Positions 4,344 to 58,280 of a stretch of 64,000 nt of DNA are shown here, in pieces. Position numbers and translations under genes: made by a program. This stretch comes from Bacteroidales bacterium (GTDB lineage Bacteria > Bacteroidota > Bacteroidia > Bacteroidales > Tenuifilaceae). Numbering within the stretch: position 1 is the stretch's first letter; each line of letters opens with the position of its first letter. The stretch lies in NCBI GenBank assembly GCA_028708425.1, contig JAQVYY010000007.1, forward strand, positions 33,165 through 97,164, written 5' to 3'. Below the pieces are notes generated by a model. That model ran no database searches and was not told the origin of the DNA. It saw nothing but the letters and a program-made list of their open reading frames with translations.

Positions 4344-4377
4344 TTGACGGCTCGATACTAATATAGCCTTACCTTTG
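4344..4377 (+). promoter_or_regulatory. Candidate Bacteroidetes-type promoter of the PUL
   Basis: A TACCTTTG matching the -7 consensus TAnnTTTG lies at 4370-4377, with a TTG 23 bases upstream at 4344. The -7 box directly abuts repeat copy A, so a transcript starting a few bases downstream would carry nearly the whole repeat as its 5' leader before the gene at 4540. This is inference from motifs; no start site is known. Confidence 0.4.
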
Positions 4378-4527
4378 TAACACGCATTACTCATCAAATT
4401 TATTAAAGATGAATGTAAATGCGGGTAACCCCCGACCGAGTCGAGCCCAATTTTGGGTAACAAAATTGGCTGTGAGACTTAGTCGCTGTCGGAGACAGCA
4501 ATTATTCGGATGAATAATTGGGGATAA
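4378..4527 (+). repeat. Interspersed structured repeat, copy A (full length)
   Basis: This is a full copy of the ~148-bp family seen eleven times in the window. It runs from TAACACGCATT to TTGGGGATAA. Predicted stems are the outer arms CGCATT/AATGCG; CCAATTTTG/CAAAATTGG (9 bp, perfect); GCTGTC-GGA-GACAGC; and AATTATTC/GAATAATT around GGAT. It ends 12 bases before the start codon at 4540 and is the only copy in the first 35 kb. Confidence 0.9.
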
Positions 4528-24895: not shown

Positions 24896-27196
24896 ATGAT
24901 AAAGGTTCGCTATCTTTTACTTATTTTTCTTCTGTTCATATCGCACCAAGGTAAAGCACAGAAAGTAGGCTTAGTGCTTAGTGGTGGAGGTGCAAAAGGA
25001 GCTTTTCATGTAGGTGTAATACAGGCACTTGAGGAGAACGGAATACCCATTGACTACATTGCAGGTACTAGTATTGGGGCGATTGTAGGAGGCTTATATG
25101 CAATTGGCTATTCACCCGAGCAAATGTTAGAGCAATTTGAATCTCACGAATTCTATCTTTGGAGTCGCGGGGTTATACCCAAGAGGTATTACTATCTTTA
25201 TAAAAATCCCGATGCTAACCCTAGTATGTTCAACGTTTCGTTCAACTTTGAAGAGGGTAATCTAAAACCAGTTGTTCGCTCACATCTTATCCCCACGCAC
25301 CAAATGGATATTGCATTCATGACCATTTTTGCCCCTGCCATAGCAAAAGCACGGTATGATTATGATAGCCTTTTTGTCCCGTTTAGAGCGATTGGTTCTG
25401 ATATTTATAATAAGAAACCCTATGTTTTTCGGAAAGGCTCGTTAAGTAACGGTGTAAGAACATCAATGACCTTTCCCTTTTATTTTCGACCCATGATTAT
25501 TGATTCTCTTACCCTGTTTGATGGCGGCATTTATAACAACTTCCCCTGGGACGTTATGGTAGATGATTTTAATCCAGATTTTATAATCGGTAGCAAGGTT
25601 TCTAGTAATTCACCTGCGCCTGGCGAGTTTGATATACTGCTTCAGCTAGAGAGTATGATAGTCCACTCCACAAATTTTGATATACCAGATACCCTTGGTC
25701 TTGTACTTGACGCTGATTTAGAAAATGTATCTCTACTCGATTTTTCTAAAGCGCGCGAGCTAGCTCAATTAGGTTATGAGCAGACTATGCTCTACATGGA
25801 TAGCATTAAGAAAAAAATTAATCGAAGGCAGGATATGGTTGAGCTTTTAACCCGAAGAAATGAATTTATTAAGGATCAGCCCGATTTAGTTTTCCAAAAT
25901 TTAGATATTAAGGGAGTAAATAAATCACAGCTGCAATATATCTTCAATTTTATTACAAAAAGGGAGAGGTATACCAATCTCGACAAATTAAAATCAGAAT
26001 ATTTTAAGCTTATTACCGATAAGTATATCGATAGAATTTATCCCACCCCCCAATATAATGAGGATGAACAGGTCTTTGATTTGGATTTGCATGTTTATTT
26101 AAAGCCAAAATTTGATATTTTTTTAGGTGGCAACATTTCCTCCTCCTCAATGAACCAAGGGTTTCTAGGTTTAAACTATAAAATGTTTCGTCGATCACCA
26201 CTTTTTTTACAGGCTAATACTTTTTTTGGCAGACTTTATACTAGTGCGCAGTTTCTTGCTCGACAGGATTATGCTACCAAAGTACCCCTGTATCTGCAGG
26301 TTTCTGGAACTTTAAATAGGTTCGATTATTATACCACTAGTTACCAACCCTTTTTCGAAGACCTAAAACCTCCCTATCTTATTAAAAAGGAAAATTTTGT
26401 AAATGCGCAATTCGGATTACCTCTTAATTCAAGTTCGTATGCCTATGTATCCTATAAAACCGGCCAAAATGATTATGAGTACTACCAGGTTGATAACATA
26501 AAGCTTAACGACTATCCAGATCACACGTTCCTTACCTTTAGCAATATTGGTTTAAATTATAAGTATAAAACCCTCAATCGCAAAATGTATTCAACAGCAG
26601 GGCAATCCATTGAGTTTCGGGCATGTCATATTAGTGGCAAAGAGCGACACGTTCCAGGTAGTACAAGCCCAACTGTTTCTTCTGAGCATTCATATCATAG
26701 TTGGTTTAATTTTCGATTAACCAGCGAAATGTATCTTTCGTTTGGTGATAGCTGGTTCTCCTTAGGCATTTATGCAGATATTAACTACTCCAACCGAACT
26801 TGTTTTTCAAATTATTCTTCAACCATCCTAAGTTTACCTGGCTTTAGGCCTACAGCTCATAGTAAAACCCAATTCCTACCCTATATGCATAATAGTAAAT
26901 ATTTAGGCTTAGGATTACTACCAATTTTACAATTTACCAACGATTTATCTCTTCGAACCGAAGCGTATTTATTCCAACCCTATATTCCTATTTATAGAAA
27001 CGAGGATGATTATACCGCCCGTTTCGGAGATAAATTTTCGAAGCGTTACCTGTTTTCAGCCGCCAGTTTAGTTTACTCAACGCGAATCGGCCCCGTTTCC
27101 TTATCCCTAAATTATTACCCACACGAGGTTAAGCCTTTCCATTTAGTTTTCAACTTTGGATATATTCTGTTTAACAAAACCAGCCTAGAGAATTAG
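24896..27196 (+). CDS. Patatin-like phospholipase fused to an outer-membrane barrel
   Basis: A 766-residue secreted protein. After a signal peptide (~residues 1-21) comes a patatin domain: oxyanion GGGAKGAF, nucleophile elbow GTSIG and the dyad Asp in DGGIYNN. A short POTRA-like segment follows (~residues 325-400, [15 protein letters not shown]), then a Tyr/Phe-rich beta-barrel region to the C-terminus, ending [10 protein letters not shown]. The architecture matches PlpD-like type Vd or BamA-related proteins, in which the lipase is tethered to or passed across the outer membrane. Lipid substrate is unknown. It heads a tightly packed operon; the flippase gene starts two bases after its stop. 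Confidence 0.93.
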
Positions 27197-33929: not shown

Positions 33930-35792
33930 ATGTTACAAGCATTCGACGTTATTGTTGTAGGAGCTGGTCATGCTGGCTGCGAAGCCGCTGCCGCTGCTGC
34001 CCGGCTCAATGCACGTGTACTTTTGGTTTCCATGGATTTGTCCAAAGTAGCTCAGATGAGTTGTAACCCTTCTATAGGCGGTGTAGCGAAAGGTCAAATT
34101 GTTAGAGAAATTGACGCTCTGGGTGGATTTTCAGCCTATGTATCTGATATTTCTACCATTCAATTTCGAATGCTAAATAGATCAAAAGGGCCCGCTATGT
34201 GGAGTCCCAGAGCTCAATGCGATAGGATGGTTTTTTCTAAAACATGGCGCGACATACTTGAAACAATACCTAATCTTTTCCTGTGGCAGGACGATGTAAT
34301 AGAGCTTATATTCGACGGAAATAGTGTGGTCGGAATCAAAACCGCCCAAGGAATTATAGTCGAATCAAAAACAGTTATTTTAACCAACGGCACATTTTTA
34401 GCCGGCCTTATCCATATAGGCAATGTAAACTTTGAGGGTGGTAGAGTAGGAGAAGCTTCTTCGAATGGCATTTCGCAGCAACTACTAGATTTTGGTTTTC
34501 AGGTAGGACGAATGAAAACTGGTACTCCTGTGCGCATTGATGGTCGTACAGTTGATTATTCTAAATTTATAGAACAACCCGGTGAGGAGGAGGAAAGGTA
34601 TTTTTCCTACTACTCACAACCAAAAAGCACGCTTAAGCAGCGAAGTTGTTACATTGCCCATACTTCGGAAAAAGCACACGGTATTTTAAAAACAGGCTTT
34701 GATCAAAGTCCCCTTTTTTCAGGCACAATACAAGGAATAGGCCCAAGGTACTGTCCCAGTATTGAGGACAAGTTACGCACGTTTTCCGATAAAAAATCGC
34801 ATCAACTTTTTTTAGAACCCGAAGGCGAAACTACCTACGAAATGTATCTTAACGGGTTCAGTTCTTCCTTACCTTCCAATATACAGTACGAGGCTCTTAA
34901 AACCGTAGAGGGTTTCGAAAATGCGCATATACTTCGTCCTGGGTATGCAATAGAGTACGATTATTTTCCACCTACGCAGCTTTATCATACCCTTGAAACC
35001 AAACTCGTAAAAGGGCTATATTTTGCGGGTCAAATTAACGGCACAACCGGATACGAGGAGGCAGCAGCGCAGGGATTGCTTGCAGGAATAAACGCAGCAC
35101 ACCAGGTAAATGGAAAGCAACAAATAGTGCTTACCCGGGACCAAGCCTATATTGGTGTACTTATCGACGATATTATTAATAAAGGTGTCGACGAACCCTA
35201 CCGTATGTTTACCAGTAGAGCAGAATATCGAGTGCTACTTAGGCAAGATAATGCCGACGAGCGATTGCTTCCTTTAGGCTATGAAATCGGTTTGGTAGAT
35301 GAACCTATATTTAAACAATTTCAACAGAAGTATACTACAATTAGTAAACTAATCGATTTCTGCAAAGCACAAAGCGTTAAACCCGATATTGTAAACCCAT
35401 ACCTTGAGTCGATTAGCTCCGCTCCAATCAAACAATCAAAAAAACTTTACGATATTGTATTGCGCCCCGAATCGTCTCTTGGAACTTTACTTGAACTGTT
35501 CCCAACCCAACTAGTAGGGCTTCAACTAACATCGGATATAGTAGAATCGGTAGAGATTCGAATTAAGTACGGAGGATATATCGAGAGGGAGAAACAGGTT
35601 GCTGAAAAAATGCAGCGCTTAAACTATGTGTCAATTCAACCCGATTTTGATTACCATAGCCTAAAATCTTTAAGTACCGAAGCGCGTCAAAAGTTGTCAA
35701 CATTACGCCCAAAAACCATCGGGCAGGCAAGTAGGATTCCTGGCGTCTCTCCAAGCGACATAAATGTGCTTTTAGTTTACTTCGGAAGGTAG
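33930..35792 (+). CDS. mnmG: tRNA uridine-5-carboxymethylaminomethyl modification enzyme MnmG (GidA)
   Basis: A 620-residue FAD protein that, with MnmE, installs the cmnm5 group on wobble U34 of tRNAs. The Rossmann motif [10 protein letters not shown] is at the N-terminus. [46 protein letters not shown] and the C-terminal helical domain ending [19 protein letters not shown] are all present. The length is full. The gene is followed after one base by the first parS-like palindrome. gidA is near the replication origin in many bacteria. Confidence 0.98.
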
Positions 35793-35810
35793 TTGTTCCA
35801 CGTGGAACAA
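35793..35810. other. parS-like site 1
   Basis: TTGTTCCACGTGGAACAA is a perfect 18-bp palindrome that closely matches the ParB centromere site consensus TGTTTCACGTGAAACA, differing in one symmetric base pair. It begins directly after the mnmG stop codon. A second site lies 241 bases downstream. Confidence 0.8.
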
Positions 35811-35888
35811 TTTTAAGACCCATTTACTCAAAAACATCCAGGACGTTTTGCCCCACATTTTTCAAATTATAACCAGCAAAAATTTCTT

Positions 35889-36035
35889 TAGCCCAGATAA
35901 ATCATCAAATTTATTATAGATGTATGAAAAAACCGTTTACCCGACTTAGTTAAGCCCAATTCTGGGTAACAAAAATGGTTTTGAAGCTTAGCAGCTGCCT
36001 TGGACAGCAATTGTCGACCGAACATTTGTGGTTGA
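35889..36035 (+). repeat. Interspersed structured repeat, copy B (diverged)
   Basis: A diverged full-length copy between the two parS-like sites. Recognisable parts are ATCATCAAATTTATTA, CGACTTAGTTAAGCCCAATT, TGGGTAACAAAAATGG, and GACAGCAATT. The outer arms of hairpin 1 and the right end are poorly conserved, so its stems are weaker than in other copies. Confidence 0.75.
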
Positions 36036-36050
36036 GTTTTTTGATCCAAT

Positions 36051-36068
36051 ATGTTCCACGTGGAACAT
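36051..36068. other. parS-like site 2
   Basis: ATGTTCCACGTGGAACAT is a perfect 18-bp palindrome with the same 16-bp core as site 1, 40 bases upstream of the ade start codon. Two identical cores within 300 bases argue against chance. Confidence 0.8.
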
Positions 36069-36107: not shown

Positions 36108-37745
36108 ATGAAGAGAGAAAAAATTATAGAGGGAGTTATAGTGCGCCCTCAAAGCAGAGAAAAGTTTGGGGCTCGTATTGTGGTCGCTGGACAGCATATT
36201 AAAAGTATAGTGAAAGACAGCACTATAAAAGCCCCCTTTATCTTACCTGGTTTTATCGATTCGCATTTGCATATAGAGAGCTCAATGCTTATTCCAAGTA
36301 GATTTGCCGAGATGGCAGTAAAACATGGAACGGTTGCGGTGGTTACAGATCCGCACGAGGTGGCAAACGTGGCGGGCGTTGAAGGGATACGTTTTATGGT
36401 TGAAGATTCAAAGACCGTACCTCTTAAGTTTTTCTTTGGTGTTCCCTCGTGTGTTCCAGCAACACCCCTCGAGAAAAGTGGAGCCACAATTGATCACCAG
36501 CAGGTGTACGAACTTCTATCAGAGCCCGATTTTCACTTTTTAGCCGAAATGATGAACTTTCCAGGTGTTATTAATAACGATAGGGATGTAGTAATGAAGC
36601 TTGATGCCGCCAAAAAACTTAAAAAGCCTGTCGATGGCCACGCCCCTGGGTTTACAGGCGAGGATTTAAAAAAGTATGTGGCTGCAGGGATTTCTACAGA
36701 CCACGAGTGTAGTAGTATCGATGAAGCGCTTGAGAGAATAAATTTTGGCCAAATTATTCAAATACGAGAGGGAAGCGCTGCGCGCAATTTTTCGTCGCTC
36801 GCGCCATTAATTGCCCAGCACCCAGAATCGCTAATGTTTTGCACAGACGATAGTCATCCAGACTTTCTAGAGCTAGGGCATATAAATAAGATTGTAGCTC
36901 GTGCAGTTGCCAAAGGCTACGATTTATTCGATGTTTTAAATATTGCTACACAGATTCCCCAAAAACACTATGGTTTCAGTTTGGGAAAGCTTGAGGTAAA
37001 TGATCTGGCCGATTTTATTATTGTAGATAATTTACAGGATTTTAATGTACTTCAAACCTATATTGATGGGAGCAGTGTTTATCGTAACAAAAACATAACC
37101 TTTAATTTACAGGATGTACCTAAACCAAATTACCAGTTCCGAACAGCTACTCCTAGTATAGACGATTTACGAGTAGTTGTACAAGGTAATACGATGAACG
37201 TAATAGAAGTATTCCCTGATGAGCTAATTACTAATTGGGTCAAATATCCTGTGTGCCAAAACTGTGGGCAGGAGATAAATTCAATGCTAAACGAGGATAT
37301 TATTAAAATAGTTTTGTTAAATAGGTACGAGAATACCGTACCCGTGGTGGGCTTTATCAAGGGTTTTAATTTAAAGAGGGGTGCTATAGCAGCCAGCATT
37401 GCTCATGATAGTCACCATATTTTGGCAATTGGTGCCAATGACGAAAGCCTTGTATCGACGCTAAAGTGGATTGTTTCGCATAGAGGGGGAATTTGTTTTG
37501 CCGAAAACTCTGTTGTTGATGGTATACCTTTGCCGTACTTCGGTTTAATGACCGATAGCAATGGGCAAGACGTGAGCACTACCTATAAAAAATTAAATGC
37601 ATCAATATCAAAAGCGGGTTCAAAACTTAATGCCCCTTTTATGACAGCATCATTTATGGCTCTTACCGTCATCCCCTTTCTAAAAATCAATCATAATGGT
37701 CTTTTTGACGTGAATAAATTCATATCAGTACCTTTGTTTAACTAA
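36108..37745 (+). CDS. ade: Adenine deaminase
   Basis: A 545-residue amidohydrolase that converts adenine to hypoxanthine in purine salvage. It has the metal-binding PGFIDSHLHIESSML, TDPHEVANV, GHAPGFTGEDL, and TDDSHPD segments, plus the C-terminal adenine deaminase domain (AHDSHHILAIGANDESL). Length and start are as expected. It sits after the parS-like pair, so it may be transcribed separately from mnmG. Confidence 0.96.
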   Translation: MKREKIIEGVIVRPQSREKFGARIVVAGQHIKSIVKDSTIKAPFILPGFIDSHLHIESSMLIPSRFAEMAVKHGTVAVVTDPHEVANVAGVEGIRFMVEDSKTVPLKFFFGVPSCVPATPLEKSGATIDHQQVYELLSEPDFHFLAEMMNFPGVINNDRDVVMKLDAAKKLKKPVDGHAPGFTGEDLKKYVAAGISTDHECSSIDEALERINFGQIIQIREGSAARNFSSLAPLIAQHPESLMFCTDDSHPDFLELGHINKIVARAVAKGYDLFDVLNIATQIPQKHYGFSLGKLEVNDLADFIIVDNLQDFNVLQTYIDGSSVYRNKNITFNLQDVPKPNYQFRTATPSIDDLRVVVQGNTMNVIEVFPDELITNWVKYPVCQNCGQEINSMLNEDIIKIVLLNRYENTVPVVGFIKGFNLKRGAIAASIAHDSHHILAIGANDESLVSTLKWIVSHRGGICFAENSVVDGIPLPYFGLMTDSNGQDVSTTYKKLNASISKAGSKLNAPFMTASFMALTVIPFLKINHNGLFDVNKFISVPLFN

Positions 37746-40610: not shown

Positions 40611-40713
40611 TTCCCCCTTTCTTTTTTAATCTAACTTATTAGATCAATGTTTATCCTTTCGCTACGAATGTATCTGTTAAATAATAAGTGTCTTATTATT
40701 AGCAGATTGTGTT

Positions 40714-40862
40714 TGACTCATATTACTCATCAAATTTGTTAAGGATGAATGCAAATGGGGATTACCCCGACCTAGTCGAGCCCAATTTAGGGTATTAAAA
40801 TTGGTTGTGAGACCTAGTTGCGGTTGTACGCAGCAATTTTTTGGATAAGTAATTGGGATTAA
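40714..40862 (+). repeat. Interspersed structured repeat, copy C
   Basis: Full-length copy with a degraded left end (TGACTCATATT instead of TAACCCGCATT) but an intact centre: CCCCGACCTAGTCGAGCCCA and the right end AATTGGGATTAA. Hairpin 2 keeps seven pairs (CCAATTT/AAATTGG). Hairpin 3 is altered to GTTGCGGTTGTACGCAGC. Confidence 0.85.
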
Positions 40863-41036: not shown

Positions 41037-41184
41037 TAATCCGCCATATTCATCTTTTTTATTAAAGAAGAATGCAAATGCGGGTTACCCCGACCTACCC
41101 GACCCAATTTTGGGTGCCAAAATTGGGTGTTAGGCTTAGTTGCTGTTGGAGACAGCCGTTATTCGGATGAATAATTGGGGCTAA
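41037..41184 (+). repeat. Interspersed structured repeat, copy D
   Basis: Full-length copy, 148 bp, ending 32 bases before the GTG start of the kinase gene. Hairpin 2 is extended to CCCAATTTTGG/CCAAAATTGGG, hairpin 3 has GCTGTT/GACAGC (a G-T pair), and hairpin 4 TTATTC-GGAT-GAATAA is perfect. Confidence 0.9.
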
Positions 41185-47142: not shown

Positions 47143-47302
47143 TTACCAACCATTTTTAGCTGCTTGGTAATCGCTAAACACCAAGGAATTACACATTTTT
47201 AACCAGAAGTTAGAAAAACTATTTCTAAGAATAGTCACCTCCCTTTTCACGCCAACAGGGTTTTCGTACCTTTTATCCTTGTTTTAATCTTTAAGCACAG
47301 CT

Positions 47303-47449
47303 TAACCCGCATTACTATCAAATTTAATAAAGATTGGATGCAAATGCGGTTAACCCATCCTATTCGAAGCAAAATTTTGGTTACAAGATTGGTTGTGCGT
47401 TCTAGCCGCTGTCGAAGACAGCAGCTATCCAATGAATAATTGGGGCTAA
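47303..47449 (+). repeat. Interspersed structured repeat, copy E
   Basis: Full-length copy from TAACCCGCATT to TTGGGGCTAA. Hairpin 2 is diverged to AATTTTG/CAAGATT with one G-T pair, hairpin 3 is GCTGTC-GAA-GACAGC, and hairpin 4 is partly disrupted (GCTATCC/AATAATT). It lies between divergent genes. Confidence 0.88.
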
Positions 47450-50512: not shown

Positions 50513-51350
50513 ATACTTTATTATACATATTATCAGGTATTTAATTATGGTTGTATTAATTAAAGGTTTAATAAATTAGTGTGCTCTAAATCAAACTATA
50601 TATTCATTATCTCATCAGCATATAAATACCGGTGCTTTAAATATGCAGTGCTGTTGCCTTTTATACCGCTTTGACCACCCATTTATTTGTAAACGGGTAT
50701 TTCTTTATGAAAGCATAAGTAAAAAACACCGTATTTTAAAAGCACAATTTTGGGGATTAGGGGTTAGGGCTTTTAACGGTATCTCTTGGTGTAGCTACAG
50801 GTTTTCTTTTTAACCCGCATTGCTCGTCAAATTTTTTAAAGATGAATGCAAATGCCTGCTAACCAGGACTTGTTGAGCCCAATTTTAGGCAACAAAATGG
50901 TTTGGGAAACCTAGTCGCTGTTTTAAACAGCAACTATACGAAAGAATAGTTGGGGTTAATTTGTTTCTGTCTTTAGAATCCTCCAACCAATAGTGTGATC
51001 CTGCATTAATGACGACATGCGATATTTTTTTTTCGTGAAGTAATAAAGGCATGATATTCACGAACGTTTATCGAATAATTATTTGAATATCAATAGTATT
51101 CGAGCAATGCTTAAAGTTTAAGCTTTAATTTTAACTATAAAATTTTAATTCGTATTATATGATACTTTTCCCTTTTCATAAATCCCCTAATTTTTAAACA
51201 CAATAAAATCACTGAAAATTAGTATAGCAGCATATGAAACAAAATACACATTTATCAGTATGTGTAAATTGTGCTTTATTTTTTTATGATGAATGCAACC
51301 ATTGGATATTATTATTTAATAAGTATTAATAGGCTTACAATTAAGGGTTT
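50513..51350. other. 838-bp gene-free region with repeat copy F
   Basis: This is the largest gene-free gap in the window. It contains repeat copy F (50811-50959). Upstream of F I see no feature. Downstream is a 6-bp inverted repeat, TACACA/TGTGTA, at 51245-51266, about 85 bases before the transporter start, which may be an operator. There is no tRNA or convincing ORF. Confidence 0.7.
50811..50959 (+). repeat. Interspersed structured repeat, copy F
   Basis: Full-length copy from TAACCCGCATT to TTGGGGTTAA. It carries the clearest compensatory changes: hairpin 3 is GCTGTT-TTA-AACAGC (C-G pair changed to T-A), and hairpin 4 is AACTAT/ATAGTT (T-A changed to C-G). The right arm of hairpin 1 is disrupted (AATGCCTGCTA). 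Confidence 0.9.
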
Positions 51351-52859: not shown

Positions 52860-52879
52860 TATTATTACTTGATTTACAC

Positions 52880-53027
52880 TAACCCGCATTATTCATCAAA
52901 TTTGTAAAAGATGACTGTAAATGCGGGTTACTCCAACGTGGTCGAACCCAATTTTGGGGCACAAAATTGGATGTGATACCTGATTGTTGTAGGAGTCAGC
53001 TATTATTCGTACGAATAATTGGGATTA
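52880..53027 (+). repeat. Interspersed structured repeat, copy G
   Basis: Full-length copy, 148 bp, from TAACCCGCATT to TTGGGATTA, 20 bases after the AbgT-gene stop. Hairpin 1 outer arms TAACCCGCATT/AATGCGGGTTA are perfect. Hairpin 4 is TTATTCGTACGAATAA, a perfect palindrome in which the loop bases also pair. Hairpin 3 is weak. Confidence 0.9.
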
Positions 53028-56307: not shown

Positions 56308-56350
56308 TGCAAAAACATCGCTGCAAGGCGATAAAAACCAATCGTAACGC

Positions 56351-56498
56351 TAACCCGCATTATACACCAAATTTGTTAAAGATGAATACAAATGCGGTTC
56401 CCCCGACCTAGTTGAGCCCCATTTTGGGCAACAAAAATGGTTGTGAGACTTAGTCGCTGTCAGAGACCCCAATTATTCGGGTAAATAATTGGGGTTAA
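56351..56498 (+). repeat. Interspersed structured repeat, copy H
   Basis: Full-length copy from TAACCCGCATT to TTGGGGTTAA, between the convergent DUF2723 gene (+) and the minus-strand gene ending at 56508. Hairpin 2 is shifted but still paired (CCATTTT/AAAATGG). Hairpin 3 is damaged on its right arm (GACCCC). Its right end is nine bases from the neighbouring stop codon, so it may double as a terminator region. Confidence 0.9.
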
Positions 56499-57987: not shown

Positions 57988-58218
57988 TCTACACTAATAA
58001 CGATAAAATGGGTATGGACATAACAAAAAAAAGTGGCTTTATTTTAAATAACAACGCAAGTAGCTGATAATTAATCGAAATAATTCTTTTTTTAGTCGAC
58101 GACGCTGAATTTATTAGCATCTGAAAATGCTTATTCGATGGACAAAGTGATAAGCGTAAAATATTCGATGATGTTGGGGGTTTCACAATATACGAATAGC
58201 AGATCTGCTATAAACATT

Positions 58219-58280
58219 TAACCCCCATTATTCATCAAATTTATTACAGAAGAATGCAAATGCGGTTTTCCCTGTCCAGC
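58219..58280 (+). repeat. Interspersed structured repeat, copy I (left end only)
   Basis: TAACCCCCATTATTCATC, then AAATTTATTACAGAAGAATG and AAATGCGGT match hairpin 1 of the family. After about 58275 the sequence departs from the consensus and runs into an unrelated hairpin, CGAGGC-GGT-GCCTCG. It is a truncated or chimeric copy. Confidence 0.75.

Follow-up and report, generated by a model that had tools for sequence, protein, structure and literature searches.

Two predicted parS sites beside mnmG in a Tenuifilaceae genome and the recurrence of this arrangement across Bacteroidota

Results

Two perfect palindromes lie between mnmG and ade

The window, which is the whole 64-kb stretch of DNA analyzed, contains the genes mnmG and ade, and the gap between them holds two palindromes separated by a copy of a dispersed repeat. 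The features are as follows.

33930-35792, + strand, mnmG (gidA), TIGR00136, E=2e-247
35793-35810, no strand, predicted parS site 1, 18-bp perfect palindrome TTGTTCCACGTGGAACAA (16-bp core 35794-35809)
35888-36037, + strand, dispersed repeat copy between the predicted parS sites, approximately 150 bp
36051-36068, no strand, predicted parS site 2, 18-bp perfect palindrome ATGTTCCACGTGGAACAT (16-bp core 36052-36067)
36108-37745, + strand, ade, adenine deaminase, TIGR01178, E=2e-167
4377-4526, further repeat copy
40713-40861, further repeat copy
41037-41179, further repeat copy
47302-47423, further repeat copy
50810-50958, further repeat copy
52879-53027, further repeat copy
56350-56497, further repeat copy
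58218-58272, further repeat copy

Palindrome 1 starts at the very next base after the mnmG stop codon, with its 16-bp core 1 bp further, and the ade start codon is located approximately 40 bp past the end of palindrome 2 and approximately 300 bp past palindrome 1. As the downstream neighbor of the pair, ade is conserved in the syntenic region of Tenuifilaceae relatives. The 16-bp core TGTTCCACGTGGAACA is identical in both palindromes and matches the parS consensus tGTTNCACGTGNAACa with 0 mismatches. The initial annotation had described two parS-like palindromes that share a perfect 16-bp core and flank a repeat copy between mnmG and ade; both palindromes are present, each extending to 18 bp, the repeat copy lies between them, and the likeness to parS amounts to identity with experimentally characterized sites (PMC4368675, PMC7022226).

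In the whole window, no further match to the core is found at up to 2 mismatches, and 3-mismatch matches, found at 26651 and 59980, are no more frequent than chance predicts. A search of the entire genome (G000; 3.51 Mb in 112 contigs, 96% complete), as the initial annotation had proposed, finds exactly two copies of the 14-bp core GTTCCACGTGGAAC, both in the mnmG-ade gap and 258 bp apart, and 0 occurrences of the reversed control pattern. The expectation from base composition is 0.006 sites per genome, and approximately 6e-9 for two within 300 bp. Variants with 1 or 2 mismatches show no excess elsewhere in the genome (14, versus 13 for the reversed control). The sites are few and clustered rather than scattered, and the pair almost certainly represents the only two parS sites predicted for this chromosome. 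The window has no match in Rfam.

A dispersed repeat separates the two sites

The spacing of 258 bp differs from the 39-44 bp observed in other genomes of the same genus, which is explained by the repeat copy of approximately 150 bp together with approximately 60 bp of other sequence beside it. The repeat has at least 40 other copies in its own genome (at least 41 matches, from scoring 33-40 of the 314-335 first-look candidates). Only a few copies are present in G001 and G003, and searches of G002, G004 and other families found none. Most likely, the repeat entered this site recently in the evolution of the lineage, and both palindromes stayed perfect. The copies exhibit TTAACCC...GGGTTAA-like ends and several internal hairpins, and all those found in the window share one orientation. 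The copy at 4377-4526 folds far more stably than shuffled sequences (z -6.0); the copy between the palindromes is degenerate (z -0.6).

Comparison with characterized parS sites

The core TGTTCCACGTGGAACA recurs unchanged in P. aeruginosa as parS2 and parS3. These two sites have the highest ParB affinity in that organism and lie in a small group of palindromes close to oriC, as predicted for the present pair (PMC4368675). A single origin-proximal high-affinity parS suffices for segregation in P. aeruginosa, which belongs to another phylum and has ten sites with four near oriC, whereas only two are present here, beside mnmG (PMC4368675). The P. putida consensus equals the 16-mer (PMC7022226), and the M. 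xanthus consensus TGTTCCACGTGGAACG, which is bound by purified ParB, shares 15 of 16 bases with it (PMC3899335). M. xanthus has 22 clustered sites approximately 4 kb from parA, in contrast to the two sites found here with parAB on another contig. The B. subtilis site TGTTNCACGTGAAACA belongs to the same motif class and has the same, here predicted, function in an origin-proximal position, but B. subtilis contains ten sites together with Smc-ScpAB (PMC7022226).

The motif is tied to mnmG across Bacteroidota

The exact core occurs in 21 of 40 genomes, including its own, nearly always in 1-3 copies on a single contig. In other families of the order, its place at the end of mnmG is taken by the classical TGTTTCACGTGAAACA or by the hybrid TGTTTCACGTGGAACA. 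Five assemblies of the same family (G006, G009, G015, G022 and G023) contain neither mnmG nor the motif, which is expected if parS lies only beside mnmG. At 68 of 80 named Bacteroidota mnmG loci, exact GTTNCACGTGNAAC is present within the fetched DNA, mostly no more than 100 bp from either gene end; 58 of the loci have a site just 3' of the stop codon, and 49 have one upstream, mostly directly before the start codon. A phylum-wide draw yields the motif in 111 of 118 genomes, with exactly two sites in 78 and 263 sites in total versus 17 for the reversed control. At 29 further loci from this draw, mnmG lies within 1.5 kb of a site in 26.

Near the ends of mnmG, all but one of 130 CACGTG hexamers sit inside the full motif, and the stem varies only at positions 4 and 11 of the 14-mer. 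This embedding of the hexamer, combined with two variable stem positions, is the pattern of parS. A link between parS and mnmG in Bacteroidota was not found in the literature outside subscription papers (among them the first parS survey, by Livny and coworkers), and no priority is claimed.

Two relatives exhibit unusual arrangements. The mnmG of G031 (L022, G031:C2:98861-100924) has an apparent in-frame insertion of approximately 70 codons, within which lies a perfect GTTCCACGTGGAAC; besides this parS-like site in the coding sequence, a one-mismatch site is found after the stop codon. In G012, at least four parS-like sites are spread over 1.2 kb downstream of mnmG (G012:C83:16553-17714), and a short TGTAGTTATGAACAGGTAA is repeated after two of them.

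The sites coincide with the skew minimum in closed relatives

Two relatives of the same family are closed as single contigs, G007 (3.92 Mb) and G020 (3.20 Mb), and their skew was sampled genome-wide in 40 stretches of 20 kb each and locally in contiguous 180-kb stretches. In G007, the cumulative GC-skew minimum falls at 1.09-1.19 Mb and the parS-mnmG locus at 1.1888 Mb; in G020, the minimum is at the contig junction and the locus at 3.1934 of 3.1958 Mb. Locally, the minimum lies 4.3 kb (G007) and 4.9 kb (G020) from the pair. The distance from dnaA to parS is 1.17 Mb in G007 and 1.34 Mb in G020, where dnaA is near the skew maximum, and parB is 645 kb and 314 kb away, respectively. In fragments of four further genomes (G002, G004, G010 and G016), the skew is negative before the pair and positive after it, as in the same-genus G002 (-0.031 to +0.013) and G004 (-0.031 to +0.017). 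After correction for gene strand, an origin is supported in G010, G016 and G020, the signal is flat in G000, G002 and G007, and G004 is uninformative, as one of its flanks holds few genes.

Around the sites, the skew of the window's own contig is not V-shaped and has no minimum (+0.015 on the left, +0.004 on the right), and a skew test at fourfold sites on this contig is not significant. No DnaA-box cluster is found beside the sites in this contig; relatives have weak ones a few kb away. Relatives share the gene order from about -16 kb to +5 kb relative to the sites; synteny is broken beyond, and the right flank is rearranged. Such a rearrangement beside the origin may account for the absent skew signal. 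The same observations could also mean that the sites are parS but that the origin of this species has moved, leaving the window no longer origin-proximal. This is unlikely, as G002 and G004 change the sign of their skew across the pair and the skew minimum coincides with parS in the closed relatives. The origin proximity proposed in the initial annotation is upheld by homology, with a minimum no more than 5 kb from the pair in both closed genomes, where the sites are neither scattered nor far from it; the window's own contig provides no such minimum. The position of the origin at the pair in this genome is likewise a prediction by homology.

An origin separate from dnaA has been reported in gut bacteria on the basis of Hi-C, skew and coverage data, from a set of species with two Bacteroidota among them (PMC10197239). 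In Bacteroides caecimuris and Muribaculum intestinale, which belong to a family other than that of the present organism, parS clusters mark the origin, which may lie elsewhere than at dnaA, and searches found none of the known condensins (PMC10197239). The text of that study does not mention mnmG or gidA.

Terminators and operators are improbable explanations of the palindromes

As RNA, both palindromes are predicted to fold into hairpins (UUGUUCC-ACGU-GGAACAA) with energies of -11.2 and -7.9 kcal/mol and z values of about -2.6 and -2.9, and the first palindrome begins right behind the stop codon of mnmG, as would be expected if they terminated transcription at the end of mnmG and before ade. 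The loop of a terminator should vary freely, yet it is ACGT in 129 of 137 GTTYC-N4-GRAAC stems by mnmG ends. Many relatives also have sites just 5' of the mnmG start, a general terminator would exceed two copies per genome, and site 2 has no T run. Judged as intrinsic terminators, for which a GC-rich stem, a free loop and a T run are typical, the palindromes fail with their invariant loop, and the terminator scan marks neither of them. Termination is therefore a very improbable function. Equally improbable are operators at which a transcription factor would control mnmG or ade: the sites do lie approximately 40 and 300 bp 5' of ade and are linked to mnmG with unusual consistency, but the side of mnmG that is occupied differs by group, the classical TGTTTCACGTGAAACA alternates at the same place, and the number and clustering of sites fit parS.

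With these alternatives weighed, the two palindromes can be assigned, at a probability of roughly 95%, as the parS centromere sites of the chromosome in its replication-origin region. This assignment draws on the sequence match, the two clustered copies, their conserved place beside mnmG, the parA and parB genes and the skew minimum of the closed relatives; the skew of the window's own contig, the missing DnaA-box cluster and a spacing that is atypical of the genus count against it.

ParA, ParB and the absence of ScpA and a recognizable Smc

The genome encodes a cognate ParA and ParB. One chromosomal ParB exceeds the family cut-off (TIGR00180, E=7e-58), and parA and parB are adjacent on a contig other than that of the window (G000:C73:6390-8130). 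The initial annotation had suggested relating the motif to parAB; the genes are indeed present, but in the closed relatives they are remote from the sites. The closest solved relatives of this ParB are chromosomal ParB/Spo0J and Noc proteins, and it passes the NCBIfam cut-off for parB_part and not that for Noc. Noc-binding sites (NBS) are palindromes of the ATTTCCCGGGAAAT type. The present sites do not fit this class, with a CACGTG core and a ParB score of 246.8 against the Noc cut-off of 315.

By analogy with the ParB family, a dimer of the single chromosomal ParB would bind each palindrome. The bound ParB would then take up CTP, close into a clamp and slide onto neighboring DNA, coating some kilobases, and ParA may move this coated region, including mnmG and ade, to bring about early separation of the new origins.

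The search for condensins covered Smc and ScpA. ScpA was found in none of the 25 genomes of the order, including the present one, whereas control genomes were positive, and no protein exceeds the Smc family cut-off in any of the 25. This agrees with the report of two Bacteroidales without known condensins (PMC10197239). Despite this absence, all 25 genomes have ParB, most with a recognizable parS. Classical loading of Smc-ScpAB from parS is unlikely given that neither ScpA nor a protein at the Smc cut-off is found, although a condensin of another type may be present, and ParA-driven segregation is the likelier predicted role of parS in a family without ScpA and a recognizable Smc.

A genus with altered sites

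In four genomes of genus g5 (G008, G014, G019 and G021), the parS 3' of mnmG is changed to GCTCCACGTGGAGC and GTTCCACGTGGAGC. The three ParB proteins of this genus that were read (L051, L057 and L058) contain VGNY in the recognition helix; in the other 26 aligned ParB proteins, the glycine position is occupied by T, S or A (VTNY/ISNY types). The joint change of site and ParB glycine is a correlation only, within one clade.

Discussion

As an element, the pair is correctly identified but ordinary, of a known kind and well supported. More noteworthy are its phylum-wide tie to mnmG, an origin remote from dnaA and parAB, and the altered parS of one genus. A broader reading would hold that the partition site stays fixed beside mnmG in all of Bacteroidota, with the origin uncoupled from dnaA and parAB, that ParB-parS operates without Smc-ScpAB in the order, and that the shifted sites of genus g5 and their unique ParB glycine represent a natural change in centromere specificity; the chances for and against this combined reading are about even.

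A parS beside mnmG offers a simple marker of the replication origin for Bacteroidota, in genomes as well as in metagenome assemblies. dnaA serves this purpose poorly: in both closed relatives, 1.2-1.3 Mb separate it from the skew minimum. The arrangement also raises the questions of what ParB-parS recruits in bacteria without Smc-ScpAB and why the centromere is kept beside one tRNA-modification gene across the phylum.
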